Source: Cantharellus purpuraceus
Lineage: Eukaryota > Basidiomycota > Agaricomycetes > Cantharellales > Hydnaceae
Assembly: GCA_025174535.1 (NCBI GenBank)
Contig: JALBUN010000010.1
Location: 2,108,001-2,172,000, forward strand
Direction of reading: 5' to 3'
DNA: 64,000 nucleotides
The notes under the pieces: generated by a model
The model's input: only the letters and a program-made list of their open reading frames with translations
Database searches by the model: none
What the model was told of the DNA's origin: nothing
Position numbers and translations under genes: made by a program
In this document: positions 3,867 to 30,500 of the stretch, piece after piece
Position numbering within the stretch: position 1 is the first letter of the stretch
Layout of the letters: each line of letters opens with the position of its first letter

Positions 3867-4218
3867 TCATTAATCGACGCTCGGTTCGTAGGATCAATTA
3901 AGTCAGAGCGAAGAAGGTCGTGCCGCCAAAATTTAGGCGGAACAAGGCAGGTAGGCGACTTCAAAACATATGCATTCATGGTTACGGCACATGGAAGGGT
4001 AAGTACTTGTGGTATAGCTAGCTTCATGGTTAAAACTACTTGTCAGTGAAGGTAGGGGGAGTGGATAAAGGTGTCTCTGATTCAATTGGTGGGGTGGGGA
4101 ATGGGGATGGGGGGAATTAAACTACAAAGAGACACCTGGAACGAATGAAAGAAAAGAAAAAATAGCAACTTAAGCAAGATAGCACACGAGATAGATATAA
4201 ACGACGGAAGCGACGCGC
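3867..4218. other. Intergenic: GDA1 5' side and bZIP 3' side
   Basis: This gap lies upstream of GDA1 and downstream of the bZIP gene, both on the minus strand. It holds a G-rich stretch near 4090-4115 and an A-rich stretch near 4144-4160 that could carry the bZIP 3' end signal. No gene is visible. Confidence 0.4.
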
Positions 4219-8757: not shown

Positions 8758-9420
8758 GGAGGCATCTGTGGTCGTCCGTACCTGCTGAAGGGCATGGATC
8801 CGCTTGCGTGATGGATATTGACATTCACCATGTCATCGGGGCTTGGACGCCTTTGCTTCTCAACAGTGATGTTCTGCTTCTTGTTGCCCTAGACACCAGG
8901 ATATATAATCTTGTCAAAGTTTGCCTGCTGCTTCCTTGGGAGAATTTAACGTTCATGTGAGTCAAGATATGAAATCGAGTGGGCCGGCATCACGGCTAGC
9001 CTCACAGATTTTCAATTGAGGATAGTGGTCCGTCGTCGGGTATGATATAGAGCGTGTCGAATGGCTATGCACAGAGAGACACACATACGGAGAAGCAATT
9101 CTACATTCTGAAATCGCGTCTGACACCGCACAGGAGACTTGTGATTTGGCGTCCAACGGGCACGGTAGCAGCTGCCTTCTTGCCCTTCGATATTGGAATT
9201 CAAGAACCTCCAGGGCGTCGTTGGTCCTGTTATATTTGAGGGGAAAATTTTGTACGAGTGTTGACGTCTCAAAGTGACAAAGCGTGTCGCCCCCGCATGT
9301 TTGTCGTTCGCCGTATTTGGCTCTGGCGCAGTTGCAAGAGCATTATTTTGTTCACCCCTTTCTTCTTATTGTTCTGGAAAAGATTATATAGTACCTACAT
9401 TCGCGTCCCCTCTTCCTCAG

Positions 9421-9560
9421 TGGTTTGACACCGTTTGTGCAAACGCTAAGGCAAGATACTTACTATCTATCTTGTATTGATTCTTACTTATCTGTACGCT
9501 CTGGTAGTTTATCCGTACAGGTAAATTAGATAGAGTGGTTTGACACCGCTTGTGCAAGCG
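9421..9560. repeat. Duplicated 25-base motif with a compensated hairpin
   Basis: TGGTTTGACACCG occurs at 9421 and 9536. It is followed by the hairpin CGTTTG-TG-CAAACG in the first copy and CGCTTG-TG-CAAGCG in the second, so a T-A pair became C-G on both arms. TTATCCGTACAG is likewise repeated near 9509 and 9569. The block lies in the part of copy 1 that copy 2 lacks. Confidence 0.7.
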
Positions 9561-9655
9561 ATGAGATTATCCGTACAGTCTCGTTATTCTTGCCCAGCTA
9601 CATCCATCCCGATAAGAGCGCTAGTCCCGTCCTGACGGGTTCAGCCCACTGGGAC

Positions 9656-9668
9656 CACCTTATAAGCT
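9656..9668 (+). promoter_or_regulatory. TATA-like element of P450 copy 1
   Basis: CTTATAAGC lies about 35-40 bases before the ATG at 9699. The same element precedes P450 copy 2 at 28,098-28,106. Its conservation in both copies is the main support. Confidence 0.4.
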
Positions 9669-9698
9669 GGTGCGCTTGTGGTAATACGGAAGGTCACA

Positions 9699-12269
9699 AT
9701 GTTTTCCCTCTACCTTTCAGCACTACTAGTCGTCGTCGTTCTATCCCGCATTTTTCTCCGTCGCCTTCGAACGCACTCCATTAAGCATCTTCCGGGGCCA
9801 CCGACAGGCCCATGGCTCGTCGGTATGCACTCCTATTGTTTTTCCTTGTCCAACACCGACTCATGACCATCGTCAGGCAATATGCCAGCGTTGCTTCGGC
9901 CAAAGGAGAGTAGCGAGGCTGATTTCGCATGGACGAAAGAATATGGCACTGCATTGTGCATCAAGGGAACATTTGGCGTGAGTACACCGTGTACTTGTGT
10001 GCTATATAGACGTCTTACTGAAGGTCTGCTGTCACTAACAGAGGGACATACTATTTACCTCAGACCCCAAGGTAGGATTTATATACTCCTATTCCATCAT
10101 CAACTAACAGCTCATTACAGGCACTGCACCATATTCTCAACACCTCTGCATACAATTTCTTTAAGCCCCCTGAAGCCCGCGCAGCCATCTCACTCACTGC
10201 CGGGAAAGGCGTCGGCTGGGCTGAAGGTCGTCACGTCTTTGCCCGCTGTGCTGATCATCTCACCTATTCGTCGTTTTTCCGCAGGAATTCAACATGCACG
10301 CCAGAGAAAGATCATGAATCCCGCGTTTTCGTACAGTGCACTTCGAGGGTTCCTTCCCGTCTTTCATTATACTGCGCAAAAGGTACGTTCCGCACTCGTC
10401 CACGCTCGTTCACGCCTTCTAGACTTGACGCATATGTATGTGCGTTTGGTAGACCGTAGCAAAGTTGAAGGAGCATGTGAACCAAACTGGAAAGACATCC
10501 GCGGTCGTGGATATCCCTTCCTGGCTCGCTCGCGCGACTCTTGATGCAATTGGCATCGGTGAGGAATGTCTTGTCGTATACCCAAGAAACGGTGCTAACC
10601 TGCATTTTCAGCGGTGTTTGATTATCAATTCAGAGCAATTGACGAAGGCGGTAGTGGAAAACTCTCCAAAGCTTACAGCAACCTCTTGTCCGTCTCTCTC
10701 TATATTAGCTAGCACGGATGCGCATATAACGAATTCTCACAGTGCCGATGTATTCATGGATCGCTCAGACGGGGTGATATTATTCGAGGCGCTCTGTGGT
10801 CTGGTTCCGGGCTGGCTCTTCGCGCTGCTGAATCGCATACCAACACGGCGGTTACAGAGGCTGCGGAATTATATGGACGCGTCAGAGGAAGTGGGACGAA
10901 CGCTGTTGGATCGTCAGGTAGCATCGCAAGCGCAGGGAAAGGAAGGGCCGAAGGATGTTATGAGTATCTTGAGTAAGCTCCTTGAGTTCTCGGAGTGGTA
11001 GCGGTATGTGCTGACAAGGTTGGTTTTTTTTCTTCTTTCGATTAGTTAGAGCGAACCTTTCTGAGAATCCAAAGTTGAAGCTTCGGGACGATGAAATTTT
11101 GCCTCAGCTCACGTAAATATCTAGTTCAATCACATCGATAGAGGGTTTGTTTGACTAACAATGCTCTCTCCTCGCTCAGAACGCTATTCCTCGCTGGGAA
11201 CGAGACCACCTCTTTGACGCTCTCATGGGCTTTATACGAGCTGTCTCGACATCTTGACTTTCAAGCAAAGGTTCGCGAGGAGATCAAGGCAACGCGTGCG
11301 CAAGCGGCGCAAAGGGGAGATAGTGAGCTGACTGTGGCTGATTTGGACGGTATGAAGACTCTCCTTGCGCTTGTGAAGGTAGATACCTGTCTTATCTTTT
11401 AATGCCCCTTGAACGGACGTGCCTCTGTTCTGGTTGTTTCTATCCGTTAGGAGACTCTCCGCTTTCACCCTATTTCTATTGCGATTGCGCGGGTGGCGGG
11501 CCATGATGACGTTATCCCGCTCGCGACATCTCAGAAGACGAAGACGGGGGAGACCATCACAAGTATTCCCATTAGCAAGGGACAACGTATACACATCTCT
11601 ATCTCTGCCTACAACAGGTGAGCCCTCACGCCACTTTGGCTGATGATGCTCAAATATGGATATGTGCAATGCGTAGGCTCAAGTCGGTGTGGGGAGAAGA
11701 TGCGGATCAGTGGAGACCTGAAAGGTTCATTGAAGAGGGTGAGGGTATGCAGAAGACTAACTTGGGGGTCATTGGGAATATGTACGAGAGTTGTTGTGTA
11801 GACATGTTAATGCTAACCTGGACGTGGTTTTAAGTGTAACGTTCAGCAGTGGCCAGCGTAGTTGTATTGGGTGTGTGCACATCACTGCCTGGCGCTTAAT
11901 ACATTCAATACTAACACCGCTGATTTCACTTTAGGTGGCGATTTGCGTGCGTCACGAGTCTATCTCCACTCGGCTTCTGCGCCGACTGACGCTTTCTTTT
12001 TTGAACGGCCACAGTATGCTCGAAATGCAAGCCATCCTCATCGAATTACTCGAGAGCTTCGAGTTCTCTCCTCCTCCTGGCAATATCGAGATCCTCCGTG
12101 TCTCTGCGAGCATTATGACGCCGGTGTGAGTCTTGTATTCTTGACAAATTCGTCGGTTTTTTTTTTCACACCCCCATTTTGAACTGTGGGATTTCGTTTG
12201 TTTAGGGTAAAGAATTCAAAGTCACGTCGCACGGAGTTGCCGATTACGATCACACCGATTTCCTACTGA
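9699..12269 (+). CDS. Cytochrome P450 monooxygenase, copy 1
   Basis: A microsomal P450 with an N-terminal membrane anchor (MFSLYLSALLVVVVLSRIF) and the proline-rich hinge LPGPPTGPWLVG. Splicing about twelve short introns gives the family landmarks in order: EADFAWTKEYGTALCIKG, ILFTSDPKALHHIL, ARQRKIMNPAF, the I-helix FLAGNETTSLTLSW, the K-helix ETLRFHP, WRPERF, the haem loop FSSGQRSCIG then WRFA, and a C-terminus ending LPITITPISY. FSSGQRSCIG fits FxxGxRxCxG with the haem cysteine present. The exon after WRFA begins MLEMQAILIELLESF. I found no frameshift. Substrate is unknown; the haem-loop and I-helix wording resembles basidiomycete CYP5144/CYP5136-like families, but I cannot assign one. The pair with 28,142-30,711 is the product of a segmental duplication. 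Confidence 0.85.
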
Positions 12270-12636
12270 CCTCGGATGTTCCCCCACCTCACCCATTTTT
12301 TCTTTTTTGTATGTGTCACAGCGTATGTGTCGGTCTGCTGAGCGGTCCCGATGACTGGAGTAAAGAGAGTATCAACCATTACCGTCTCGTTTTGATGTCC
12401 CTGTATGAATAGATCTTGAAGTTGAGGACCTTGGTGGAAAACGTGAAATGCTCTTCCCACGTGGGACAATACGGACCCAGGCTCCATGTCCGTGCATCTA
12501 ACAAACTTGTGATGAGCCTCATTGAACTGCATAAACTGACACCATGCTCAAACTAAATCGAATGGAGATGGGATGTAGACATGGTTGGTGATCAACTGGG
12601 CAGGGATAGAGTGCAAGATTGAGTGTTGGGGTATTT

Positions 12637-12959
12637 TAAGTACCCTAGGTTCTTACTTACATGTAGCATAATATACAGTGCATATAGCAATACAGCACCC
12701 CCCGTAGGAATGCTGTCTTTCCTGGTAGAAATATGTGTCAAGAATTGAAGCTACCATACCTATACACACTGACAAGCAAATGAAGATTCAGCCAGCAAAG
12801 GCATTATTTGAGCCAGGACCAGTATATGTGCAGTGTACACAAGAAACCCCACAGTGACACCACAAGGCCATGATTGCCACACAAGACTTGGATGTTTTGG
12901 AAAACCTCTTGGGCAAGGTGTAAGGCATGATGTCACACTATGGAGATGGGCAGGCCAAG
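12637..12959. other. Unassigned transposon-nest edge
   Basis: Sequence between the end of duplicated P450 flank and the first recognisable LTR. It begins near TGTTGGGG, CpG is scarce, and no coding motif is visible. It is probably a fragment of another repeat, because it interrupts the homology shared by the two P450 blocks. Confidence 0.35.
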
Positions 12960-13419
12960 TGTTACATCCTGTAACACCAATTCTGAACTCTGGATCTCCC
13001 CTTACTCCATCTCCACTGACTCCTTATCCCATCCACCTCCATCAACTCTGAACTCCTTTTATTGTTCTCTTGTTAAGTCTTATCCCCTTCAAGGTTATAA
13101 CAACCTTTATCATTTCACATTGATGAGTATTTTGTCCTGGATCAAGTCCAAACTCCAAACTCCTTTCCATATTGTACTCCATATCCAGCTTATTGTTCTC
13201 CTCCTGATTAGGACACTTCTCCTAATCTAGTTTTTACATTCAATTCTCATGATACTGATACAGGCTATTTTCTGTATGTTACAGTAGTTTGTATATCAAC
13301 AAAGTTTGACACCTGCTGCTCTTCTTGGTTGCTAGCTTCTTGACAAGTCCAACTCCAGATCCTTGATCCAACTCTGTACTCCAAACTCTGAAATATTGGA
13401 CAGACAATTTAAGGGGGTG
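12960..13419 (-). mobile_element. Truncated LTR, related to the LTR at 22,721-23,299
   Basis: Starts TGTTACATCCTGTAACACC, the same terminus that bounds the chromovirus block on its right (there in opposite orientation). The shared tract runs to CTCCAAACTCTGAAATATTG near 13,380-13,400. It stops at AAGGGGGTG, where the copia LTR begins, so copia seems to have landed in it. The remainder was not found on the far side of the copia remnant. Confidence 0.6.
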
Positions 13420-13615
13420 TGTTGGGGGTGGAACTATACTGAAGTTAGGCTAGGGTATAGGCATATGTGAGTACAGTAAGACAGTAACTGAGTAAGATAT
13501 CTCACCTCAGTCTACACAATATCAGTGTAAAGACTGAGGGGAAAAAGATGGAGGTATTATGTCTGAATATACTACTTGTTATGGGTGTATGTGGACTCAT
13601 GATCTATTTCCAACA
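13420..13615 (-). mobile_element. Ty1/copia 3' LTR
   Basis: A 196-base unit with TGTTGG and CCAACA ends (6-base inverted termini). On the minus strand it is directly preceded by the purine tract GAGGGGGAG, the expected polypurine primer site next to a 3' LTR. The pol coding remnant lies just beyond on the same strand. Confidence 0.75.
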
Positions 13616-13754
13616 CTCCCCCTCAGTGAGATGAAGTCATGTTATCCCACTCTGAACTCCCCCTCAATCCAAGCATTGGTATGAATTTCCAGTGCTTGTA
13701 CCTCAGAAGTCCTTTTGTGAGAATATTGGCTGGCTTCTCTGTGCCTGGTAGGTG

Positions 13755-14830
13755 TCAGAATGTGATATCACCATCATCCACACGTTCATGAGTGTAATGG
13801 TATTGTACATCAATGTGCTTTGAGCATGCATGGAATGATGGGTTGCATGTGAGGGAAATTGAGCTGTTGTTGTCACTGTAAATGCAGGTGGGTGTTTGTG
13901 GATATCCAAAGGACATCAGGAGTTGATGTAGCCAGATAGTTTCTTTTGTGGTGTGACAGCTAGCAACATATTTGGCTTCACAACTGGATGTCATGACACA
14001 GCTCTGATGTTTCACACTCCAGGATATAGTGCTGGATCCAAGCATGAAAAGGTAGCTGGATGTGGATCGACAGGAGTCTTTGCAGCCAGCATAATCAGAG
14101 TCAGTGTATGTGGTGAGCAGCTGTGGTATGACCACTGAGGACAAGGTGGAGATCCTTTGTACCATGCAGATACCTAATGACATGCTGTACAGCCATCCAG
14201 TGGGCAGGTGGTTGGTGTTAAATTGACTCAATTTATTGACTGCAAATGTGATGTCAGGACACATTGAGATAGAAGGTCACATGAGAGAGCTGATGGCCAC
14301 ACAGTAGTGGATACATACCATGGCAGATTTTTCAGCATTCATGGTGGGGGACAACTTGCAACTAAGAACATTTAAGTCCATTGGTGTTGAGACAACATAA
14401 CCATCTTTGAGTCCATATTTTGCAACCAATGCCTCAACATATGCAGTCTGTGATAGAGATATGGTATGTCTGGAGTGATTGCATGAGATGGCCATGCCAA
14501 GGAACCATTTGATATTGCTGAGGTTCACAATCTTGAAGGCTTTTCTGAGGTTGTTGATTAGTGCATCAATTGCAGTTTTGGAGGTTGCAGCTATGGCCAT
14601 GTCATCTACATGGACAGCAAGCATGCATTCTCCCAGTGTTGTCTTGTGGCTGTAAACGCCATGAGTCACATGAAACCAATCTTGGTTAGCTCATCATGCA
14701 GACATGTGTACCAGCAATGTCCTCCCTGTTTCAACTTGTACAGGGACTTATTCATATGGCACACCCAGTCTTCTAAGTCATGTATGAATGAATTAAAAGA
14801 TGAAACAGGGGTGAGTCATATAAAAGAACA
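13755..14830 (-). pseudogene. Ty1/copia pol remnant: reverse transcriptase and RNase H
   Basis: In minus-strand order: a frame with NKSLYKLKQGGHCW (RT fingers), then HVDDMAIAATSK (the copia VDD catalytic box), WFLGMAISCNHSRHTISLSQ, and finally an RNase H region with TDSDYAGCKDSCRSTSSYLF and SCEAKYVASCHTTKE. The parts lie in different frames with stops between them, so the element cannot encode an active enzyme. Integrase and gag are not visible upstream. The 3' LTR is at 13,420-13,615. The 5' side gives way to an unassigned stretch at about 14,830. Confidence 0.85.
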
Positions 14831-15439
14831 ATAGAAACATCCACCAATACCATCTTCCCTACAGCTCCAAAGGTAAGTTGACCCTGAGTCACATGAGGAC
14901 TTCAGTCAGCAACCACAACAAATACTCCTTATTGTCTTAGTGATCTGTCTCCATTCCAAGGGTATTTGGTCCCTTTGCCTGACTCAATGTAACCTGAGTT
15001 GGATTGAAGTGGGAGGATAGGTTGGTGATGGTGACTGAAACTCTACCTCACATTCAACTCCTTTATCCATGTTACGATATAGAGGTGAAATGCCAAGGAA
15101 TGTATATGGTTCAATGGAATCATGAAAGAATATGAGATCGCCAATGGCATAAGAGAGACGTGGTGGGGACCTTGGACATTGAAAGAGTTTTGGAAGTATT
15201 TTGACACATGGAGGTGGCTTAACATGCCCGTGGAGCTTGGCATATTTATGATAGTCCTCCATGTCCAGAGACTAGTGTGACATATTATTAGAAGAGATGT
15301 TGGAGAGAGGAATAGAATTGGAAGCCATGTGAATGATGATGAAAGGATCGGTGTGAATAGAGGGCTGATAATGATCAATAATGATAAAACACAAATGATG
15401 ATCAATGGCTAGAAATAGAGACTGAGGTGGAAAGGGAGT
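14831..15439. other. Transposon-derived sequence, not assigned
   Basis: Minus-strand open frames exist (for example around 14,984-15,262) but match no domain I recognise. The stretch sits between the copia RT remnant and the 3' end of the gypsy integrase, and may be a copia leader or a filler fragment. Confidence 0.3.
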
Positions 15440-15499: not shown

Positions 15500-16091
15500 T
15501 TTGATATACATCCTCGGTGCGTCCTGGCTTGTCAGCAAATCATTTGACACCCTTGAATTTGGTGTCATTGTTCATGGGCATGCCTACTCTAGGCATATAC
15601 TGGTAGTTAAGCTCAAATGGAGTAAACCCCATTGTTGAGCTTATGTTGGAGTTTAGTGTGAACTCCACCATTGGACACTGATGTGCCCAATCTTTCTGAT
15701 CACTTCATACAACTGTACAAAGTATCTGGCCAATGGAACAATTTGCTTGTTCCATTGCTCTATCATTTGTGGATGGAATGCTGTGGACATGAGGAGTTTC
15801 ACTCCCATTATCTGCTGTAGTTCACACCAAAAGATAGATGTGAAGTTTGAGTCTCGATCAGACACGATTGAGTCTGGTACACTGTGAAGGCATACAACTT
15901 CTCTAAGGAATAGCCATGCTACTCCTTTTGCTGTTACACATGTATCCATAGGTATTATATGTACCTGTGATGTGAAGTGATCTATGACTACCAGTAGGTA
16001 GTCATAGTCATTCGATTTTGGTAATGGACCCATAAAGTCCATACCTATCGATTGCCAGGGCTGTTCTGGTACTGGCAAGCTATGAAGAAGC
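15500..16091 (-). pseudogene. Gypsy integrase catalytic core and C-terminus
   Basis: Contains LLHSLPVPEQPWQSIGMDFM, a DYLLVVIDHFT strand, SIVSDRDSNFTSIFWCEL and a later E region (FHPQMIEQWNKQ), i.e. the D, D and E of a retroviral-type integrase. Downstream is ELNYQYMPRVGMPMNNDTK, the usual post-core motif. Stops interrupt the frame after residue ~150. The zinc-binding half lies at 17,496-17,690, separated by a solo LTR. Confidence 0.85.
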
Positions 16092-17490
16092 TGTTTTGGA
16101 ACCTGCAAAATTATGGTGTTAGGGCAAACTCTAAATCACCACAATTCCATGAATGAACAGCTGAGAAGAATATCAGACCCTGCTGCAGCACAACTCCAGA
16201 AACAATTTAACATTTGTACTTTGGTTACAATCCTTTGTATTGGTCAATGCAGACTATATGCAGAAAAGCAATACATTTCTTAGCAGCAAGAAATGAAAAT
16301 AAGACTTCCAGAGTCTAGAGTTCATGGACACTTAGGGGTCCAGATATTCTGAAATGAGGGGAATGCACTTAGAGGCTAAAGGAAGTAGGTGGATGAATCT
16401 GACCGTCCAACCAGTGACACTCTGAAGTGGGTAACAGCAATGTGTGAAGTAGTCTACAATTGCTTCACATGAGTTGTCCAAGCTTCTAATGCTTTGCAAA
16501 GGCAGTACACACTAGTTACTTAAAACTAACGGCAGGACTATCGACAGACAATCTCACCCTGTAGATTCATAGTCATGTGAGGTAGATACTACACTCATGC
16601 CCAAAGCAGGACAATCACTACTTCAAGTGCAATCAAATACAGTTACACAACTGTAAAAGATCCTTGAACTGGTAATCAACAGTTACTGAGATAGAGGATG
16701 ACACTGTATGTCACTCTAGTCACACTGGTGTGCAGAAGATGGGTAGAAGTGGTAGAATATGTTATTATTTCAGAGGCAGAATGACCTCTTTATATATTGT
16801 ATTTACAGGGGCTGACTAATGCTTCTGGAATATTTGATAGATGGAAACTACTGGAAGGTAGTGGAAGGTGGAAGAAAGGGGTAGAATATTCCAAGCCAAT
16901 CACAGGTTCTGATCACTGGACTAACACTGATCAGGAGCTGAATAATGCTTCTGGAATGTTCTATCTAATAATAGAAGGAAACAGCTAGAATGTTATGGAA
17001 AGGGATAGAATATTCCAAGGCAATCACCTGATCTGATCCTTGAACTAGGCACTGATCAGGCAAAAAGGAGGGTATTCACCCTATTTTCTGTACTGGTTTG
17101 CATAGTCATGGATAGCCACATCTCAGATCATGATCTCCATGGAAATTTGTGCCCTGAGAGGCTGTGGTTGTCAAGTTACAGATTATTTATTGATCAGAGA
17201 CATCTGACCTTGAATTCAGGCCAAAAATGCCTGATCCAGAGGTGGAGTGCTGACTGTGTGAAGGTTTGTGGGCACCTATGGGTCCACAACTGTAACACAG
17301 CAGAATAAGAGTATTCTGGGCCAAGTTCTGCATGGAATATTCCTGAAAAAATATGGAAAAATAGAGAATATTTGAATAAGTCCATTCCAGGCACAAGCAC
17401 CATGTATATGCTGTTATTTAGGAAAAGTGAAATAGAGCACATTGGTGTTGCATAAATAGAATTTGATAGGGAAAAGATGATTCCCATACA
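16092..17490 (-). mobile_element. Solo LTR (1.4 kb) inserted in gypsy integrase
   Basis: On the minus strand it begins TGTATGGGAA and ends CCAAAACA. The 5-base target duplication GAAGC lies on both sides (16,087-16,091 and 17,491-17,495). Removing it rejoins the zinc domain (CQMNKDSTKKPIG) to LLHSLPVPEQPW. It is the same family as the LTR at 61,839-63,316 (opposite orientation), with shared tracts around ATTCAAATATTCTCTATTTT and the whole promoter-to-end half. A TATA-like ATATATAAAG lies near 16,790. Confidence 0.9.
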
Positions 17491-17495
17491 GAAGC

Positions 17496-17690
17496 CCTAT
17501 GGGTTTCTTAGTACTGTCTTTATTCATTTGGCACTTCATGCACAAAGTGCAGAATGATTTGACATTGGTGGCCATGCCTGGCCACCAGTACAACCATTGA
17601 ATGTAATTTGTGGTCTTTAGTTAACCAAAATGGCCAACTACTTGGTGCGCATGCTCGATTATTATCTCAGCCAGCCTCCTCCCCTTCAAA
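17496..17690 (-). pseudogene. Gypsy integrase zinc-binding (HHCC) domain
   Basis: The minus strand encodes an IIEHAHQVVGHFG stretch, then TTNYIQWLYWWPGM and a CTLCMKCQMNKD end. These supply the His-His and Cys-x2-Cys ligands of the integrase N-terminal domain. An in-frame stop follows HFG. It continues across the solo LTR into the catalytic core. Confidence 0.8.
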
Positions 17691-19167
17691 AGTGCTGAGC
17701 AGGGTATACAGACAACATCATGTCTGTATATATTTTTGGTCCATATTAGACCATCATGCACACCAAATTGTGCATGCTCTTTAGGTGCTTCCAGCACCTT
17801 AGAAAGGACAGTATCCTTTCTATATGCACCTCATACAATCTGCACAAGGTTGATCCCATGCTCAACATGGGATCGCAATGGTGTTCCATCATCATCTGAT
17901 GACATCACTCTGATGTCCTCTATTTCTTTAGAGGACTTAGAATCATTGTTTCAATGATTCTGTTTGAACATCGAGTGCTTCAGCTTCCAGCACTCTGTTC
18001 TCTTTTTTCTCAAGCAGTCGCCTTTGGGTGACTGCTGCTGTCCTGATCTCAATGAATCATTCCATAGGGAGCAGTTCTCCTTCAGGGTTGAGATGTACAT
18101 CTGTGCTCATGTAGATGTAGTTGGGATGACTCTCTGTTGGGGAGTCATCAGCATAGTAGTGTGACAGACAGTCCGCTACTTTGTTCTCTACCCCGTCTAC
18201 ATGCAGGGTAATAAAGTTGAAGCAGGATAAGAACTCCCACTACCTAATCTGTCTAGGAGACAGGTTCTTTTGGGTCTCAAAGTATTTGAGACCCTTGTGG
18301 TCAGTTACTAGGACAAACTTTCATCCTAGTAGCTTTTCTTCCCATTTCATTAGGGCTTCAAGCACAGCTATAGTCTCATGCTCGTAAGTCTTATAGTGCT
18401 GTTGTGTAGCACTGAATTTCTTGGATAGGAATCTGGCAAGCTGACAGGTCTGCCAATCTTTTCCTTGTCCATAGATGGCTCTGACTCCAGTCTTGGAGCC
18501 ATCAGTAATAACCCAAATAGTATTGGGGTTATTGACATTGATGGGCTTCAATATTGGAGCCCTACACACTAGGAGCTTAATGCTTTCAAAGCATCTCTCC
18601 AGCAGCAGCATCCATAAGAATGGATAATTATTATGAGCACAACCCAATGAAGGGGTTGTGTATGCAGTTATATCTGGCATATAGTGTGCCAGATACTGCA
18701 CTAGTCCAAGGAAATGTTGGACTTCGTGGTACAACCTAGGTCATCTCCACTCTCATATTTGTTGCATTTTGTCAATGTCTGCATGCATGCCTTGGTCATC
18801 TATTATGTGACCAAGGCAATCCATACTTGTTGAGTATAGATCAATCTTATCCTTGCTCAGGAACATATGTGCTTTCCTGAGCTTGGTGAACACCATCTCT
18901 AGGTGGTGTTCATGCTCTCATATAGTATGAGAGTACACAAATATGTCATCCAGATATACATGGACAAATCTTCTGATATATTCTCAGAAGATGGTGATCA
19001 TGAGCCACTGAAATGTCAAGGGGGCATTACAGCCCCCTTGCTGCATGACTTGGCTGATGAATGTCCCCAAGATGGTCCAAATGCCATCTTGGGTATATCC
19101 ATCAGCCTGACACATATCTGTTCATACACTTCAGACATATCAAGTTTAGATTGATATGTACAGCAGG
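17691..19167 (-). pseudogene. Gypsy reverse transcriptase (palm) and RNase H
   Basis: Starts within the palm with LKLDMSEVYEQI (first catalytic Asp), then MQQGGCNAPLTFQWLM, FVHVYLDDIFVYS (catalytic YLDD box), MDCLGHIIDDQGMHAD, HFLGLVQYLAHYMPDI, VITDGSKTGVRAIYGQG (RNase H) and YKTYEHETIAVLEAL. A TGA follows YSHTI in the palm, and further stops occur upstream of HFLGL. The RT fingers are missing, replaced by the block starting at 19,168. This is the segment with the densest hairpins. Confidence 0.85.
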
Positions 19168-19684
19168 TGTTATGCACTAGGTCCGATTGGGGGTTGGAGA
19201 TTGGATCGGAGGTCGGGTCGGAGTCGGAGCATGTCGTGGGGGTCGGAACGGACTTGGCTTCAGCTTATGTGCTGCGCCCTCACTAATACCAGTGTCCGAG
19301 ATTTCAGAGACGGAGTACGACTTAGAGAGTTAGGATCGGACTTAGGAGCTAGGCGTGATTTGATATTTGAACTGGGGAATGAAGTCCCCAGTTGGGCAAC
19401 TTAAATACATATTTTGAAATCTAATAATAATTACTCCGGTGATGGGTCTCCGAGGCCAACGGCCTTACATGAGTATGTCCAAGTCCGATGGGGACAGATG
19501 TCCGGGTTCCTATGGTGATGCTGATGCATCAATCGGAACCGGAGACGGATGGGCGGAATCGGCAGTGACAATCGGACAGGCAAATGGAGATGTAGCGGTT
19601 TCCAAATGGAGTATAGATTTCATATGCGCAGGGATCTGAGTGGATCAGATGGGGATCTGGTCATTAATGAATATAGTCATAACA
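19168..19684. mobile_element. LTR, family B, copy 1
   Basis: Begins TGTTATGCACTAGG and ends ATAGTCATAACA, giving 7-base inverted termini TGTTATG/CATAACA. It matches the two solo LTRs at 25,421-25,954 and 26,038-26,561. It keeps the most CpG of the three, so it looks youngest. For the chromovirus block it would be the 3' LTR. Confidence 0.85.
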
Positions 19685-19801
19685 GTATCTCTCCATTTAA
19701 GGCCAAGCCCCTGAGGCCTCATGTCCATGGATTGAATAGGTGAGACGATTGGGCGCGGTCGGAGTTATACTGGGGGTCTGGAGACATATAAAAGGAGGGG
19801 C

Positions 19802-21439
19802 ATGATTGAGGTCTTATCCTCAACGATGTCAAACCCTTTGGCAAGCATGAGCGTGGCTGAGCTTGAGCAGCTGCTCTTGGCCCGATGGAAAGAAGAGGAG
19901 GAGGAGCGGAAATGGAAAGAGGAAGAGGAAGCAGAACAGAGACGGAAGGAGGAGGAGGAGGCGGAACGGAGATGGAAGGAGGAGGAGCAGAGGCAGAAAG
20001 AGGCGGTGGAGATGGAATGGAGACGGAAGGAGGAGGAGGCAAAAGCTGAGAGAGCTCGCAGGGTAAAAGAACTTGCGGCAGCGATGGAGGCCACGAGACT
20101 GAAGGAAGTGGAGGAGCAGGCACACAAGCTAGAGGCAGCCATGGAGGTAGAGGAGGAGGTGACCGGGGCAGGGGGAACCAGCCACCCAGGAAGTCCAAGT
20201 GTGCCAATACGGCCAGGGACCCCAGAAGTCGCCATCATCTCTGTTACACGGATGGAGACGACTTGTTCGAGGACTGTCACTGTGGAGGACTCACCGTTAC
20301 GTCCGTGGGCATGGCCCTTATTTGAGTTGGGGGCAGCTGAGGAAGATGATGCGGTGGAGACGGAGAGGGCAGAGGTGGAAGCGGATCCCGATGCCAATGT
20401 GGATCTCGATGCAAATGTGGAGCCTGAGGCGGGCATGGATGTTGGGATGGATGTGGAGCTGGATCCCACTTCGAATTCCTATGAGGAGATGGTTTGGGTA
20501 GCTGTGGTCGAGGCTTGCAAAAGAGCAGAGCTCTATGCCACTACCACCAAGAAGAATCTCAATGTCGCGGTCTTTTCATTGAAGGCCTACCCGAGTGCTG
20601 ATACGGAGAAGTGAGAGGCGGACCAGAGGGTCATATGGTGCAAGGCGGAGAGTCGCGTGTTGGCGACCCATAAGAAGGAGCTGCATGTCGCGAGGTCGGT
20701 GATCCAGCTTCACAAGCGCGAGATGGAGAAGGTGGCAGCAGAACAGCAGGACAAGGAGGAGGAGAGGGAATGCTTGGAGGCCGCAGTGAGAAGGGGCGGA
20801 CCACCCAAGGCTCTGGCTCCAACGGAGCCATTTGGTGGACCCAGTGTAACTTGCAACTTATGTCGTGATGTGGGTGTGGAGTGGGTGTGGCCTACTGGCC
20901 CAACTCGCCGACTTCGGTCCTGCGATTGTTGTCGGGGTCAGAAAGGAGGGTGTAGGATCGATGGGAAGTTTGATCCCCGGAGTCGGAGTGTCAAGCCCCA
21001 ACTAGTGGTACAAGGAGGGGCAGAGAAGGAATCAGAGGGTCGTCTGACCAAAAAGAGGTGGACGGAGACGGGTGCTGTGGCAGCCGGGGGTAGCGGCGTC
21101 GGATCGGAAGGGGCGACGACTGGTGCAGGTACAGGGTGCGTTTCGGCACCCAATAGCACCATGGGCCAGCTTATCCGGCTGGTTCACCTGCAGTCGGAGC
21201 ACCTTTGGTGGACGGATGGGTTGTTAGTAGACTTGGTGAGGACGATGAAACGGAAGGAGGTTCTAGAGGGTCATCAGACAGCCAAGTTATGTCGGTTGCG
21301 GAAGTTCATGGCCCTGTTGGACGAGGATTCAGACATGGGAGATGAGAAGGATTGGGTGTCGGATGTAGAGAGTGATGAGGAGTCAGAAACGGAGCCTGAG
21401 GTAGATAAGGGAAAGGGAAAAAGGAAATGCGATGTATAA
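19802..21439 (+). pseudogene. Antisense accessory ORF of the chromovirus block (coiled coil plus Cys cluster)
   Basis: A single reading frame broken by one TGA at 20,612-20,614. The N-terminal ~100 residues after AELEQLLLARWK are an almost pure Glu/Lys/Arg coiled coil. A Pro/Glu/Val linker follows, then (after the stop) another helical stretch (HKREMEKVAAEQQDKEEERE), a cysteine cluster CNLC...CDCCRGQKGGC, and an acidic tail ending KGKGKRKCDV. Proteins of this layout are common beside gypsy elements in mushroom genomes; their function is unknown to me. The first half of the cluster reads GVEWVWP where such proteins often have a Cys, so one ligand may be lost. It lies opposite and convergent to the chromodomain end of pol, both ending within 150 bases. 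Confidence 0.6.
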
Positions 21440-21588
21440 AATAAAAATGAAAATGATTATAAATTTCGGAACAGAGAAGAATGAGGTGGAGTGATTCCTT
21501 CGGAGCTTTTTTGGGCAGGCATGTAATTTCCTTTGACTTGTAATAAAATGATGATGCAAAATAATAGAATTAGCATTAGTAATCGAAC

Positions 21589-22470
21589 TTAAAGATTCAT
21601 AAGAGGGCCAGGTTTGTCTGGATAAGTGGAGTGGAAGTCAGAGACGGATTCGGATGCATGATCGAGTTCGGACGTGGAGATCCATGAGGACTCTTCGTCG
21701 GTGCCTTCATACCCAGTCCATTTGACTAAGTACTGGAGCTTGCACTTGTATCGACAGTCAATCTTCGAGTCCAGGATCTTGGATATCTCATATTCATTGT
21801 CTCCTTCGATGATGATCAGGGGAGGTGGGGGTTGCATGCAACCGGAGATCTCATTCATGGTAGCGGGTTCGAGCATTGAGATGTGAAAGACCGGATGAAC
21901 TGCTTGGAAGTGGTCCGGGAGGCGGAGGGTGAAAGACCTGCTGCCTGCGTGAGCAATGACCTCATAAGGACCTAAGTATTTCTCAGAGAGTTTCTTCGAT
22001 GGACAGGTGGTCCGGAAGTGTTCAGCCTTAACGAATACTTTGTCTCCGATTTGCAGGTCCGGAGCTGGAATGCGGCGTCAGTCTGTGGAGACTTGATATT
22101 GTTTCTGAGCATCGGAGATGGTCTCTCAGAGATGTTGGTGTAGTTGATCGAGGTCGGTTACGAATTGGTGGGCTTTGGTGGAGGCAAGTTCTTTCTCAGG
22201 GTGGATGGAGATGTTCGGATGGTAGCCTTTATTAGCGAAGAACGGAGAGATGCCGGTAGTCACGTTCGGAGCGTTGTTGTAGGCAAACTCTGCGATCGGA
22301 AGTAGATCAGCCCAGTTGTCTTGTTGATAGTTACAATAGATTCGGAGATATTGTTCCAGGGACTGATTCATTTGTTCTGTTTGTCCGTCTCCTTCAGGAT
22401 GGTATCCGGAGGTGAAATGAAGCTTCATGTCGAGAGCCTTTCCTAATGTGCGGAAGAAGGAGGTATCTGG
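21589..22470 (-). pseudogene. Chromovirus integrase C-terminal half with chromodomain
   Basis: On the minus strand: SFFRTLGKALDMKLHFTSGYHP, then GDGQTEQMNQSLEQYLR (the integrase Glu region), WADLLPIAEFAYNNAPN, and at the C-terminus EYEISKILDSKI with LQYLVKWTGYEGTDEESSW, a chromodomain. In chromoviruses this domain directs integration to marked chromatin. The catalytic N-terminal part, RT and protease are absent. The frame is broken between the core and the chromodomain (near 22,080-22,126). Confidence 0.85.
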
Positions 22471-22690
22471 TTCTTGGACCTTGGTCTGAGCAGAAGACTT
22501 CTTCAGAGATGATATGGAGTTAGCCAACATACTGAGGGCTTCCACAAGGTTAGGGATTGGCTGGAGGAGTGCCTTCCTGGAGGTTAGCCTTGAGCTCCTG
22601 GTCGGATGATGGTGCTTCTCCAGGGACTTCCTCAATGGTAGCGGGTGGTACTCCTGCTTGGATGGAGGTCTGGGTGCTTCGGGGTGGCAT
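22471..22690 (-). pseudogene. Chromovirus gag N-terminus fused to integrase by deletion
   Basis: An ATG at 22,690 opens MPPRSTQTSIQAGV with an acidic, Pro-rich leader. After a frame change it continues PNLVEALSMLANSISSLKK and VQEPDT, typical of gag just before the capsid. This runs directly into integrase (SFFRTLGKALD) at about 22,470, so a large internal deletion removed capsid to mid-integrase. Confidence 0.65.
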
Positions 22691-22720
22691 GACGATTTGA
22701 GGGTGTAAGTTCATATATAC

Positions 22721-23299
22721 TGTTAAGTGCTGAAAACTCAGAGTTTAAAGGAGTAGCTGGTGTTTGGATACTAGTGAGGAAGGGGATGGGACTTTACTGT
22801 TCCAGTTCAACCGGAGACAGATGGGGACAAATAACTATTGAGTCAGATTGAGTGGACTTGGCTTCAACTTATGTGTTGCGCCCCCTCAAAATCGTCGGTC
22901 CAATATTTCGGAGTTTGGAGTATGGAGTTGGATCAAAGATCTGGAGTTTGACTTGTCAAGAAGATACTTGTCAAGAAGCTAGTAACCAAGAAGCTGATGG
23001 GGAATCTTAGTCGATATACAAACTACTGTAACATACAAGAAGTAGCCTGTATAAGTATGTAGAGAATTGAATGGTAAAACTAAAAGCAATAAGACAATAA
23101 GACTAATATGGAATACAACATGGAAAGGAGTTTGGAGTTTGGACTCATGTCTGAACTAATACTAAACAATTAGAAAGTATACGGTTGTTGTAACCCATAA
23201 GAAGAAGACTACTAATGAGGAGAACAATGGCAGGGTCTGGAGTTGATGGAGGTGGAGATGGAATCCAGAGATCGGAACTCGGTGTTACAGGATGTAACA
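22721..23299 (-). mobile_element. LTR, family E (right LTR of the chromovirus block)
   Basis: On the minus strand it starts TGTTACATCC (at 23,299) and probably ends CACTTAACA (22,721). It shares a GACTTGGCTTCAACTTATG tract and the neighbouring TGTTGCGCCC with family B LTRs but is otherwise diverged. A second, truncated copy is at 12,960-13,419. The left end is inferred from the TAACA terminus and is less certain. Confidence 0.55.
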
Positions 23300-23449
23300 G
23301 GGGGGTCCTTTACTGAGTCTAGTCCTTCTTTTGGGAGGGACTGTGTTGTGGGTAGTTCATGTTTAGAGTTACCCCCTTGGCGTCATTTATTCATGCCAAT
23401 ACTCCTTCTTTGTATTAAATTTGTACCCTGGGACAGGGTATGAAGAGCA

Positions 23450-23982
23450 TTGGTATTATACTCTTCATTGGTGGGGACTTCTTCAGTTCCCATCATGATT
23501 TGGCCTGGGCCATTGAAGTCCAGGCATATTCCTAGCTTTCATAGGAATGGGATACTGAGTATTACATCATATGACTCAATGTTGGTGACATTGAAGTATT
23601 CTTCAATGTCCCAACTACCAAACTTTATGGTAGTGTGAGTACCATAATTTATGGTACTCCTGCTCCCAACACACACTAATTGCAGTGCAATGGGTTGCTC
23701 TAGCATGAAGGTTTTCATACCTGTCATGTACATGAATTCAGGGGATATCATTATCCCCTTGCTCCCACTGTCTAATAGATGGTGAGCAAGTGTTCCACCA
23801 ATCTCCCAATACCCAGAGATTGTTTTATTATTTATGCGCAGCCTATTGGGTTGCACTGTCGATTTCTGTCTACTCCTATGATTATACATAGGTTTGGCTG
23901 ATCTGTTGATGCTGACAGCAGCTATATGCAGCTGTTGTGATTCCCTGCTTGTCAGGAATCTTATTGCACTACAGAAATGCAC
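23450..23982 (-). pseudogene. Gypsy retropepsin (aspartic protease)
   Basis: Contains AHHLLDSGSKGIMISPEF, the D-S-G active site of a retropepsin, and YDVILSIPFLRKLGICLDFN, the conserved flap-to-end stretch. Upstream residues link to gag. A short linker toward RT continues to about 23,310, where the inserted block begins. Hairpins are very dense here, for example an 11-base near-palindrome at 23,637-23,659. Confidence 0.8.
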
Positions 23983-25420
23983 TGCATAGGTGCATTTTGA
24001 TGGAATTCGATCATTGGGTCAAATTCATATTGCATTAGAGCGATACATTGGCATAGCCTCCTCTTTGGGGGCATCATCTTGGTCATCCCATTTGTATGGG
24101 GCAATCCCCTCATTCCATTTGTCAGCTACTTCTATAGCTGGCATTTTTTCCTCTAGATGGTCCTTGGGATCATCCATCACTTCTTCATGTTCTCCCTCTA
24201 TCAGGGAGAACCTGTCTACATTGTCCTCCACTATATGTGAGGACACATCCTTTCGGACTGCAGCTGACCTTACATTGCCCTTTAGTTTGGGGCAGCTGGG
24301 TCGCATGTGACCTGTCTGGCCACATTCATAGCATACAACATTACTGGTAATGTTGTTTGGTCGATCACCACTCACATGTGCTGGTGACTTCGATTGATAA
24401 TTACCTCTAAAGGAGTAATTGTTGGAATTGAACCTGGAGCCTCCACTACAGGGTTCCAGCCTTGGCACACTCACTTGTCATGAGTGTGTATTGGGAGCCA
24501 TATATACATGTCCATAGGGCATGGGTCAACTCCCTGCATTCATCATATCAGTAGTTCTATTGACTACTGGTCTATGGGTTGAGGAGGACACATTAGTCAT
24601 GTTTTCCAGGTGTTGCATACCATGGTGGTATCGTGTCACTTCCTCTATCATTCAAGCAGTTTTGTACAACTGCTCAATGCTGCTAAACTCAGCATTGAAG
24701 CCCTTCTTGAGGACTTCTTGCCTCAGAGGTTTGCACATTGCAGTTACAAACCTCTTCCTGTATGTGTATGCAGCCCACATACTTATCTAGATCATTTATT
24801 AATTCATGAATGGTCCTTTGACCCTGTGTTACAGAGTCAAATTTATTTGACACATGATGATGCATCAGGGTGTAGGAATCTATGCTGGAATCCTTGGATT
24901 GCAGTTTCCAGGGTCCAGTCTTGGACTGCCCTGTCATAGTGTTCTACATTTCTGTAGAACCATTCCTGGGCCTCACCTTTAAGGCAAGTGCCTAAGTACA
25001 ATAGTTGAAACTCTGTACTTGATGGCCCTAGAAGATCATTCATCTTCAGCCATCATAGCATACCTGCTACAAAGATCTTGAACTCTTCAAGATCTGCACC
25101 TCCTGCATATTGCTCAGGAGGGGATACTTTAATGCCCACCTTGGCAAGGACAGACTTCTCTAGGTCTGTATCTCTACTATCGACTATGGCTACTTGCACT
25201 ATATGAGTAATGCCATTGATAGGATCAATTGTATCCAATTGATCTGGTATGCCTTGACCTTCTAGGGTCAATGGCGCTGATTGTTCCCTGTTATGGGGAA
25301 CATCTTCTTGAGGTACCCATTAGGTATCTTGTTGCTCATGTTGGGTGTCTCCTGAAAGGCCTGCCACTCATACACACTGATAACTGTTCAGTGCATGTCG
25401 CAACTGTTGGTTTAAGTCAA

Positions 25421-25954: not shown

Positions 25955-26037
25955 GTCAACAGCCACATTGAACTCTTGCTGGGGCCACTGCTCTCTAAAC
26001 AGCTGGCCGAGCTCCTGCTCTGCATGTTTAGCCTTCT

Positions 26038-26561: not shown

Positions 26562-27593
26562 CTTCTGTTCAAGGGCTAATCTGTGTTTACAAGAAGCCTC
26601 AACTTCTCATTGTTTCCATAGCTTGAGCTCTTGATTGAGCTCCTTTGCCATAGATTGGGGAGTTTCTTCCTCAATCTGGATCAGTAATCCTTGCCTTATG
26701 GAGATTACTGGGTCTCTGATTCCCTCCATTGGGGGGATCTCATTTCCTCTGTCCAACTGATCATTTGGTTGGATCCTCTCACTCCAGGGAGATCCAGGCT
26801 CTCTGGATTCAGATTCTCATCAAGAATCTGATCTTCAGTGACATGACTTGTGTTGCTCAGAGTTCTCTTGGAGCAATTTTAACATTGTTCCTAGCTCTGC
26901 AATTTGCCGCCCCATAGTAGTGGCAGCATGCCCTGCTTCAGCAGCCATCTTGGCTGCCTGAGCACTAGCTTTGCTAATGCTCTTCATCTCATGTTGATTA
27001 CACATGAGTTGTTCGGTCAATCTTGCAATTGACCTGTGGGTTTCATGCCACTCCATGCTGCATGATTCCCTAGTAGAAGTATTGCTACTTCTACTTGTGC
27101 TCATATATTGAGCACATTCCTTTCCTTTAGGAATGTTGGAGGCAGTTAATGACTGTCTCCTCCTTTCTTCTCTAATCAGAGAACCACTCGATGAGGGGTT
27201 CCTGTTTGACAGATGATCTATTGTGCGATCATCTGTGCAGTCTCACAACCTCAAAGACTCTCTCCTAGAGTCCTCCTTACAAGAAGTCCCTATGACTTCT
27301 CTAGGGTTTTTAATGGTGTAAGCACCAGATGATACATGTGCCCGGCTGGTTCACCGGTGTTCAGCTTGATGCACCCAACATCACGAGATATAACAGCTCA
27401 CCTGGAATTTCTCTTCATTCCCTGGAATAACAGCCGGAATAGATACACCACGGCTAAAGGCGGGTTAGATTGGGACTACATGTGTGGTCAGCGGCTGACT
27501 GGCTATGAATCGGATGATATACAGGTGAACACCACCTGGTCAACGAAGGCACGTGACGCCGTACCTGTGGCTGGGTGCAATCATGACACATTC

Positions 27594-30500
27594 GGAGGCA
27601 CCTGTGGTCGTCCATGCCTGCTGAAGGACATGGATAATCCGCTTGTGTGATGGACACTAACATTCACCATGTCACCAGGACTTCGACGCCTTTGCTTCTC
27701 AACAGTGATGTCCTGCATCTTGCAGTCATGTTGCCCTAGACACCAGGATATAATCTCTTCGAAGTTTGCCTGCTGCTTCCTTAGGAGAGTTTAACGTTCA
27801 TGTGAGCCAGACATGAAAACGAGTGGGCCGGCATCACGGCTATCCTCGCAAATTTTCAATTGAGGATAGTGGCCGGTCGTCGGGTATTATATGGAGCGTG
27901 TCGATGGCCACACAGAGAGACACAAATGGAAGTTCTATTCCGCAATTCTACATCCTGAATCGACGCACAGGAGGCTTGTGATTGCTGTCTGACGGGTACG
28001 GTGCCAGTTGCATTCTTGCCCCTATGTTGCCCTTCGGTATTGAAATTCAAGAACTTCCAGGGCGTCGCATCCCGGCGGGTTCAGTCCACTGGGACCACCT
28101 TATAAGCTAGTGCGCTCGTGGTAGGAATACGGCAGTTCACAATGTTTTCCCTCTACATTTCAGCAGCACTGTTGGTCGTCGTCGTTCTATTCCGAATTTT
28201 CCTCCGTCACCTTCGAGCGCACTCCATTAAGCATCTTCCGGGGCCACCGACAGGCCCATGGCTCGTCGGTATATTTTCCTATTGTTTTTTCCTTGTTCAA
28301 CACCGACTCGTGACCCTCGTCAGGCAATATGCCAGCGTTGATTCGGCCAAAAGAGAGTGGCGAGGCTGATTTCGCATGGACGAAAGAATATGGCACTGCG
28401 TTGTGCATCAAGGGAACATTTGGCGTGAGTGCACCCTGTAATTGTATGCTATACACGTCTTATTGAAGATATGCTATCACTAACAGAGGAACATACTATT
28501 TACCTCAGACCCCAAGGTAGCATTTCAACACTTCTATTCTATCATCTACTGACAACTCATTACAGGCACTGCAACATATTCTCAACACCTCTGCATACAA
28601 TTTCCCCAAACCTTCTGAAGCCCGCGCATCCATCACACTCACCACCGGAAAAGGCATCCTCTGGGCTGAAGGTCGTCGCGTCCTTGCCCGCCGTGCTGAA
28701 CATCTCACCTATTCGTCAATTTTCCGCAGGAATTCAACATGCACGCCAGAGAAAGATCATGAATCCCGCGTTTTCGTACAGTGCACTTCGAGGGTTCCTT
28801 CCCGTCTTCCACTGTACTGCGCAACAGGTACGTTCCGCACTCGTCCACCCTTGTTCACGCTTTTTAGAGTTGACGCACATGTATGTGCGCTTGGTAGACC
28901 ATAGCAAAGTTGAAGGAGTATATAAGCCAAACTGGAAAGACATCCGCTGTCGTGGATATCCCTCCTTGGCTCGCTCGCGCGACTCTTGACGCCATTGGTA
29001 TTGGTGAGGAATGTCTTGTCATATACCCAAGAAACGGTGCTAACCTGCATTTGCAGCGGCGTTTGACTATCAATTCAGAGCGATCGACGAAGGTGGTAGC
29101 GGAAAACTCTCCAAAGCCTACAGCAACCTCTTGTCCGTCTCCCTCTATATTAGCCAGCATGTATACGCATATAACGAGTTCTCAGTGTCGATGCATTCCT
29201 GGATCGCTCAGACGGGGTGATATTATTCGAGGCGCTCTGGGGTCTGGTTCCGGAATGGCTCTTCGCGCTGCTGAATCACATGCCAACAAGGCGGTTACAG
29301 AGGCTGCGGAATTTTATGAACGTGTCAGAGGAAGTGGCACGAACGCTGTTGGATCGTCAGGCAGCATCTCAAGCGCAGGGAAAGGAAGGGTCGAAGGATG
29401 TTATGAGTATCTTGAGTAAGTTCCTTGAGTCCTCGGAGTGGTAGAAGTATGTGCTGACAAGATTGATTTTTTTCTTCTTTTAACTAGTTAGAGCGAACCT
29501 TTCTGAGAATCCAAAGTTGAAACTTCGGGACGACGAAATTTTGCCTCAGCTCACGTAAATATCTAGCTCGATCACATCGACAGAGAGGATTTGCTTGGCT
29601 TACAAAGGTTCTCCTCGCTCAGAACGCTATTCCTCGCTGGGCACGAGACGACCGCTTCGACGCTCTCATGGACTTTATACGAGCTGTCTCGACATCCCGA
29701 CTTTCAAACGAAGGTTCGCGAGGAGATCAAGGCAACTCGTGCGCAAGCAGCGCAAAGGGGGGATAGTGAGCTGACTGTGGCTGATTTGGATGGTATGAAG
29801 GCTCTCCTTGCGCTTGTGAAGGTGGATACATGTCCTATCTTTTACTGTCCCTTGAACTGACGTCCCTCTGTTCTGGTTGTTTCTATCCGTTAGGAAACGC
29901 TTCGCTTTCACCCTATTATTAATGTGCTTGTGCGGGTGGCGGGCCGTGATGACGTCATCCCGCTCGCGACATCTCAGAAGACGAAGACGGGGGAGACAAT
30001 CACAACTATTCCCGTGAGCAAGGGACAACATATACACATCTCTATCTCTGCCTACAACAGGTGAGTCTTCACCCTACTTTGGCTGATGATACTCAAATAT
30101 GGATATGTGCAATGTGTAGGCTCAAGTCGGTGTGGGGAGAAGATGCGGACCAGTGGAGACCTGAGAGATTCATTGAAGGGGTCGAGGGTATGCAGAAGAC
30201 TAACTTGGGGGTCATTGCGAACGTGTACGAGAGTTGTTGGGTAGGTATGTTGATGCTAACATGGACATGGGTTTCAGTGCAACGTTTAGCAGTGGCCTGC
30301 GTAGTTGTATTGGGTGTGTGCACAACACTGCCTGGCGGTAAATACATTCAATACTAACACCGCTGATTTCACTCTAGGTGGCGATTTGCGTAGGTCACGA
30401 AGGTATAACCACTCGGCTCCTGCGCTGACTGACGCTTTCTTTTTTGAACGGCCACAGGATGATCGAAATGCAAGCCATCCTCATCGAATTACTCGAGAGC

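Follow-up and report, generated by a model that had tools for sequence, protein, structure and literature searches.

Some RNA viruses have genome-scale ordered RNA structure, an excess of folding that runs through the genome and takes in coding regions. The retrotransposon family described here is like these viruses in having a folding excess along the whole element, but unlike them it folds equally on both strands, is built of local stems and shows no preference for sense G-U pairs. The closest analogue that we found lies outside retroelements. The mitochondria of Nematomorpha (hairworms) are described as having perfect coding palindromes, with arms of up to 142 bp that evolve in concert, and in the accessible text the authors raise template switching and leave the function open (Mikhailov et al. 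2019, PMC6649704). These coding palindromes are the subject of a follow-up from 2023 (PMC10380579). From what the accessible texts report, the two systems share perfect inverted repeats inside conserved protein genes, retention of the protein and a proposal of template switching, and in long hairworm repeats the codon phase is biased, third positions being paired with each other less often. By the same accounts, the hairworm repeats are in mitochondrial DNA, whereas ours are in a retrotransposon, with stems (of at least 8 bp) mostly of 8-11 bp and coding and 3' parts alike; and the hairworm arms change in concert, whereas here there is little concerted change and the arms decay after insertion. 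In yeast genes, spacer inversion and arm homogenisation are reported, in the text available, as results of template switching between the arms of inverted repeats (Abraham and Hazkani-Covo 2021, PMC8604942). Judged by the accessible text of that paper and of a second one (Monttinen and Loytynoja 2022, PMC8794818), template-switch or quasipalindrome mutation resembles our case in its perfect arms, short loops and loop inversion between intact arms. The reports concern single events in host and RNA genes, whereas here a whole 9.6-kb element is packed.

The window, by which we mean the whole stretch of 64,000 nucleotides that was analysed (C10:2108001-2172000), carries one copy of this element. 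The hairpin element belongs to a Ty3/Gypsy LTR retrotransposon family; it measures about 9.6 kb, and dozens of copies lie in one genome. This genome looks fungal, judging by the appearance of the window's genes and a resemblance to mushroom Gypsy proteins; the Pfam matches obtained (BTB, kinase, bZIP and GDA1_CD39) are not decisive on this point. In the genome searched (40.15 Mb, 50 contigs), the pol piece gave at least 48 matches, nearly all of 87-92% identity (best 40 of 175 candidates scored). A 137-aa RNase H piece gave at least 142 matches, of at least 61% identity except for the last eleven, at 24-28% (best 150 of 617 candidates). The mean identity of 21 aligned pol copies is 91%. The preliminary description had read a Gypsy pol, and this reading held, with the pol on the minus strand. 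The homologous open frames of another copy, at locus L013, match RVT_1 (8e-20) and Integrase_H2C2 (4e-18). The same frames match Ty3_capsid (E 1e-5, below the Pfam cut-off), RVP_2 (5e-5) and SH3_Tf2-1 (6e-12), and PF17919/PF17917 occur in relatives of the RNase H piece. The order is the usual Ty3/Gypsy one of gag, protease, RT, RNase H and integrase, as in Ty3/Gypsy elements with an SH3_Tf2-1 integrase tail. No chromodomain was found after the integrase in the L013 frames scanned, where L013:6483-6875 matched SH3_Tf2-1 only, and the two frames further downstream had no Pfam match at E 0.01. In the 3' part of the element, of 2.2 kb, the longest open frame is 123 aa; the two frames scanned there are without Pfam match, and we provisionally treat this part as non-coding. 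A terminal repeat of about 560 bp closes the element in L013, L009, L025 and L026, and part of its direct 5' counterpart is visible in L016. The end repeats L013:76-578 and 9107-9620 are related, about 77% alike, and inverted rather than direct. The top protein relatives are 71, 79 and 81% identical. At the DNA level, no relative was found in phages and none was confirmed in viral contigs or prokaryote genomes.

Set against 20 other loci, the window copy proves to be a single element broken into five pieces, with inserts between them; some other copies are without the inserts. The domain names of the main pol piece come from the homologous L013 open frames and from relatives of the ORF 18321-18734. 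The features are as follows, in window coordinates, and those listed without a strand are unstranded.
15535-16091, minus strand: integrase piece of the hairpin element, matching locus L013 and named as integrase through relatives of the L013 counterpart; it has 7 stems of at least 7 bp, two of them of 11 bp (15731-15757 and 15982-16007).
16092-17489: insert in the element, a repeat of about 1.4 kb; 16091 and 17490 are adjacent in other copies, e.g. L013 and L012.
17490-19168, minus strand: main hairpin-packed pol piece, with reverse transcriptase, RNase H and integrase zinc domain; 28 stems of at least 7 bp.
17566-17587: hairpin, 9-bp stem and 4-nt loop; a stem of at least 6 bp is at this centre in 15 of 21 copies.
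17939-17961: hairpin, 10-bp stem and 3-nt loop; 8 bp in most copies.
18013-18036: hairpin with flipped loop, TTCG-type in most copies and TGAA in L015 and L024.
18272-18294: hairpin, 10-bp stem and 3-nt loop; 10 bp in 5 of the 20 copies having it.
18394-18414: hairpin with flipped loop; most copies read TTGTG, L036-L039 and L041 read CACAG, and L040 has a third state, CTGAG.
18788-18818: hairpin, 11-bp stem and 9-nt loop; stem of at least 6 bp in 20 of 21 copies.
18855-18882: hairpin, 9-bp stem and 10-nt loop; the stem has its 9 bp in 19 of 21 copies.
19017-19040: hairpin, 9-bp stem, overlying the RT motif read as QGGCNAPL, which we take to be an important one.
19066-19093: hairpin, 10-bp stem and 8-nt loop; stem of at least 6 bp in only 7 of 21 copies.
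19169-23299: insertion or insertions, LTR-like at 19169-19684 and followed by further elements, without hairpin excess.
23300-25420, minus strand: gag, zinc-knuckle and protease piece, hairpin-packed, with 26 stems of at least 7 bp; Ty3_capsid and RVP_2 matches in the homologous L013 frames are weak.
25956-26036, minus strand: short element piece between LTR-like inserts.
26572-27307, minus strand: 5' part of the element, upstream of gag, with 10 stems of at least 7 bp.
The insert at 16092-17489 has 5 stems of at least 7 bp and 1 of at least 8, a mild hairpin excess at 7 bp only; its repeat also occurs separately in loci such as L010, L012, L014, L021, L022 and L026. Elsewhere in the window, 9882-11669 and 28429-30037 have similar ORF translations and are one coding-like repeat in two copies.

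Stems were counted as perfect Watson-Crick stems with loops of 3-14, thresholds of our own choice. Fifteen hairpins had been listed with coordinates in the preliminary description, and all 15 are perfect inverted repeats with the arms given; some are 1-2 bases longer, such as that listed at 18,789-18,817, whose stem is 11 bp at 18,788-18,818. In the segment 17,566-19,160 there are 33, 28 (maximal stems), 22, 14 and 5 stems of at least 6, 7, 8, 9 and 10 bp, respectively. The means of 200 dinucleotide shuffles are 5.28, 1.45, 0.31, 0.10 and 0.04, with maxima of 13, 7 and 2 for the first three classes. The RT-RNase H frame has 18 stems, while synonymous-codon shuffling gives a mean of 1.01 (maximum 5, 300 shuffles) and codon-order shuffling a mean of 0.79. 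The excess density suspected at the outset is thus borne out, both dinucleotide and codon-preserving shuffles falling far below the observed counts, and chance is rejected as the source of the hairpins. Of the stems of at least 8 bp with loops to 14, 67 of 68 in L013 and all 22 in the window pol are 8-11 bp long; longer stems occur in single copies, e.g. one of 14 bp in L027. The stem excess fades at loop lengths above 14 and is absent at 21-30.

The texture is wider than first noted, and recurs at 23,300-25,420, 26,572-27,307 and 15,535-16,091, the other pieces of the same element. Outside 15.5-27.9 kb the window is near chance, save for a mild excess of stems of at least 8 bp in 28-64 kb. 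Positions 1-15,000 have 11 stems against 10.2 in shuffles, and 28,001-64,000 have 28 against 22.2, with 14 against 5.7 at 8 bp and above (20 shuffles each). Within the insertions, 19200-23000 has 2 stems of at least 7 bp where 2.0 are expected. Neighbouring elements had been said to be without the texture, and the ORFs 13,755-14,264, 14,277-14,669 and 22,126-22,635 agree, with 1, 0 and 0 stems. The names copia for the first two and integrase-like for the third are the earlier reader's labels; 13,755-14,264 and 22,126-22,635, the two scanned, have no Pfam match. One non-family stretch of the window, 48701-49500, has 4-5 stems of at least 7 bp per 600 bases.

The hairpin array spans the whole element, LTR included. 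In L013, stems of at least 7 bp number 12.4 per kb in the 5' part upstream of gag, 13.9 in gag-PR, 12.5 in RT-RH-IN, 14.1 in the 2.2-kb 3' part, which has no recognised gene, and 23.2 in the LTR. Each of the 21 aligned pol copies has 17-28 such stems. In pol, 38 helices are shared, with centres 20-90 bases apart and 23 of the 37 gaps at 25-50, which makes about one hairpin per 40 bases; 658 of 1,674 alignment columns are in stems found in at least 6 of the 21 copies. The preliminary description had asked if the density is specific to the family, and it is: in 27 scanned sequences (the window, L009-L028 and L030-L035), there are 12.26 stems per kb in family sequence (1,482 in 120,920 bases) versus 1.33 elsewhere (219 in 164,303). 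Four distant Gypsy-like loci sampled in the same genome (25-26% protein identity), unlike the family, are without the texture, with 0, 3, 0 and 0 stems per 2.5 kb. Of the two outcomes that the preliminary description had named as refuting it, similar counts in shuffles and equal density in neighbouring remnants, neither occurred. A 545-bp LTR-like repeat outside the matched element (L035:19-561, L035:4001-5000 and L011:8801-9500) has 4-5 stems of at least 7 bp per 600 bases, and is perhaps the LTR of a related hairpin family.

The hairpins common to the copies were already present in their common source, and are older than the spread. Among the differences listed between copies, alternation of TG with CA predominates, at sites that were probably once CpG. 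These sites are mostly TG or CA, independently per copy, as seen at 18915-18933 of the window compared with L009-L028. This suggests cytosine methylation of the hairpin family in the host. Transversion variation averages about 0.4% per column over the 21 pol copies, and 6,143 of 6,820 stem cells are still Watson-Crick. The mismatches comprise 318 sense G-U, 303 sense A-C and 56 others, and column variation among the copies is alike in paired (0.057) and unpaired (0.066) columns. Pairing is not maintained in inserted copies, and the arms decay evenly after insertion. Covariation among the young copies was uninformative, since most of the 25 stem pairs that occur in two Watson-Crick types look like CpG sites that decayed independently.

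Changes that separate the older from the younger lineage, on the other hand, avoid stems. Older copies are at a transversion distance of 1.3-2.3% from the window copy in matched pieces. Eight of them, first picked by transversion distance and few per column, were compared with 30 younger copies, without L036 (intermediate) and L051; a stem was counted when either group had it, which keeps stems that one lineage has lost. The 1,559 columns with at least 3 older copies contain 53 non-CpG lineage differences. At third codon positions, these fall at 7 of 226 paired and 29 of 283 unpaired columns (odds ratio 0.28, p=0.0016), and over all columns at 11 of 688 and 42 of 871 (p 0.0004). At codon positions 1-2 the figures are 4 of 442 and 12 of 580 (p 0.2, not significant). 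With stems taken from older copies only, third positions give 5 of 140 paired and 31 of 369 unpaired (p 0.079, not significant); stems from younger copies only give 3 of 213 and 33 of 296, the strongest contrast, but one favoured by construction. Changes confined to one younger copy, most of which should postdate insertion, are even at third positions (38 of 236 paired, 52 of 307 unpaired). In the 3' part (L013 6,876-8,689) and the integrase end (L013 6,276-6,875), L035 alone represents the old lineage and its later mutations dilute the contrast with the younger copies, which is 48 of 699 paired to 99 of 745 unpaired (p 5.6e-5) in the former and 18 of 187 to 33 of 277 (p 0.55, not significant) in the latter. 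Single-copy changes in the 3' part fall at 81 of 885 paired and 98 of 929 unpaired columns. The contrast between lineage and single-copy changes has p 0.023 at third positions, p 0.0012 over all columns and p 0.023 in the 3' part.

The texture is shown to be compatible with a mostly open protein frame, and the protein is kept. In three pieces, where the relatives are conserved, stem codons of the family deviate no more often than the rest (7 of 69 versus 31 of 197). In the window, third-with-third codon phase is found in 6 of 38 helices, which is below one third. In L013 it is found in 12 of 61 stems of at least 6 bp, versus 263 of 877 in shuffles; for stems of at least 8 bp there is no depletion (6 of 22 versus 6 of 52), and we base no argument on this phase.

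Some copies have intact arms around a loop that reads as the reverse complement of the usual one. Thus GCAGAACTTTC-AGA-GAAAGTTCTGC has TCT in L010, CCTA-GAA-TAGG has TTC in L051, AACTC-AAA-GAGTT has TTT in L027 and L050, and CACC-GCTTC-GGTG has GAAGC in L025; GCTG-TTGTG-CAGC has CACAG in five copies, one base off the exact inverse. Counted over clusters with at least 2 transversions, loop inversions are found at 6 of 254 hairpin centres versus 5 of 14,262 other centres, from which centres near a hairpin centre were excluded (Fisher p 1.2e-8). In copy-by-centre cells with a two-transversion cluster, inversions make up 12 of 30 at hairpin centres versus 6 of 920 elsewhere; these cells come from related copies and hence are not independent. 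A stricter version, in which both window ends must differ, gave no loop inversion and two windows elsewhere, and it was relaxed after missing known cases. Some early candidates were dropped, being explained by CpG decay of self-complementary loops. Three of the six loop inversions occur in one copy only, and such single-copy inversions may have arisen in host DNA replication. Among the copies compared there is no clean event in which one arm is plainly rewritten as a copy of the other. In L013 6,276-8,689, 4 pairs are doubly changed and still paired (0-3 in slid controls), beside 57 single changes. At L013-coordinates 7083-7111, L009 has 12-bp perfect arms with a 1-base loop where other copies have a shorter stem; this extension consists of four clustered changes across both arms and is derivable from neither arm of the common form.

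Since stems were defined as Watson-Crick, the test of strand is whether G-U pairs extend or replace them, and selection on sense-RNA folding alone would be expected to put up with G-U on that strand. Stem cells, lineage differences and stem ends all show no preference for sense G-U. The lineage differences in pol stems, as read from the list, are 1 sense G-U versus 10 sense A-C. This sense A-C lean, 10 to 1, amounts to G-U on the antisense strand, and it is possible from it that the antisense strand or the first cDNA strand is what matters. Lineage differences outside CpG in the 3' region are 17 G-U and 22 A-C. Stem ends have 26 G-U versus 53 A-C, where composition predicts about 0.10 to 0.14-0.15 of ends. 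In 120-nt windows over the coding and 3' parts, folding energy has a mean z of -2.7 to -3.7, with controls at -0.8 to 0.2, and the two strands are similarly extreme (z about -3). The lack of a sense G-U preference and the equal folding of the strands fit copying between arms.

The best explanation, to which we give about an even chance, is that the arms are perfected by template switching and kept by selection while the element lives. A polymerase copying the element would switch template between arms, and imperfect local inverted repeats would become perfect. We infer that the switching most likely takes place while the element is reverse-transcribed, since the texture goes with this family rather than with other elements of the host. 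Selection would favour copies in which protein and pairing are both retained, so that stems would persist in the living lineage. With template switching alone, the columns of a stem should diverge pairwise and as fast as neutral sites. The few double changes imply that it cannot by itself explain stem conservation, and that selection for pairing is also needed.

Selection for nucleic-acid structure could instead have built and kept the hairpins alone, either as in the RNA viruses with ordered structure or as a shield against siRNA or antisense RNA, with template switching incidental; we hold this possible, though on the whole doubtful. In its favour are the stem columns conserved while the lineage was alive, both at third codon positions and over the 3' part, the folding z of about -2.7 to -3.7 given above, the fewness of converted pairs, and a coverage that takes in the LTR. 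It sits poorly with sense G-U being unfavoured (318 versus 303 A-C cells, 26 versus 53 ends, 1 versus 10 lineage differences) and with an antisense strand that folds as well as the sense strand, and the loop inversions require another process. A host-wide DNA process, either replication template switching or repair, might make hairpins that the family merely displays, which we regard as quite improbable. As far as the accessible text of PMC8604942 goes, template switching between inverted-repeat arms is known in chromosomal genes of yeast, and three of our loop inversions are in single copies. The non-family sequence in the scanned loci, at 1.33 stems per kb, also has about twice the density of shuffles of the window's other parts (10.2 per 15 kb). 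Against such a process stand the 12.26 stems per kb of the family, the 0, 3, 0 and 0 stems of the distant Gypsy-like loci, and the even, unmaintained loss of pairing in inserted copies. That CpG decay made the hairpins, through C to T changes after methylation that turn CG into the mutually pairing TG or CA, is very unlikely. Nearly all the between-copy differences listed are of the TG/CA kind and a few copy-specific stems do arise in this way, e.g. the 17901-17917 stem of the window; yet many stems are common to most copies whatever their decay pattern, and the decay mainly breaks pairs, evenly, with about 10% of stem cells unpaired and 621 of 677 of these G-U or A-C. An origin in the codon usage or amino-acid composition of pol has next to no likelihood, as synonymous and codon-order shuffles give about 1 stem versus 18 and the 3' part and LTR are as dense or denser.

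For the combined reading, template switching with selection for pairing, the benefit can only be guessed at: compact folding of the single-stranded nucleic acids might hinder pairing with antisense RNA or siRNA. Shielding of this kind would be a guess that fits the pattern of local, short stems on both strands over the whole length. We tentatively propose, as a possibility rather than an expectation, that template switching in the element's own replication has turned its whole length, both LTRs and both strands included, into an array of perfect short hairpins close to saturation, and that the array is held by selection as a shield.

The preliminary description knew of no described retroelement with this texture, and the open-licence PMC papers, judged mostly from listings, do not contradict it. 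Protein-coding sequence with a second, element-wide pairing code on both strands is unusual. If the proposal is true, self-folded nucleic acid used as a shield would mean that a mobile element can live by its structure, a mode of life that we did not find described in open-licence PMC papers as far as they were accessible. This is a multi-copy element with many dead copies, which makes changes during its life separable from changes after insertion. It therefore makes two questions testable: can template switching give structure to an entire element, and do mobile elements fold along their full sequence as a defence against silencing?
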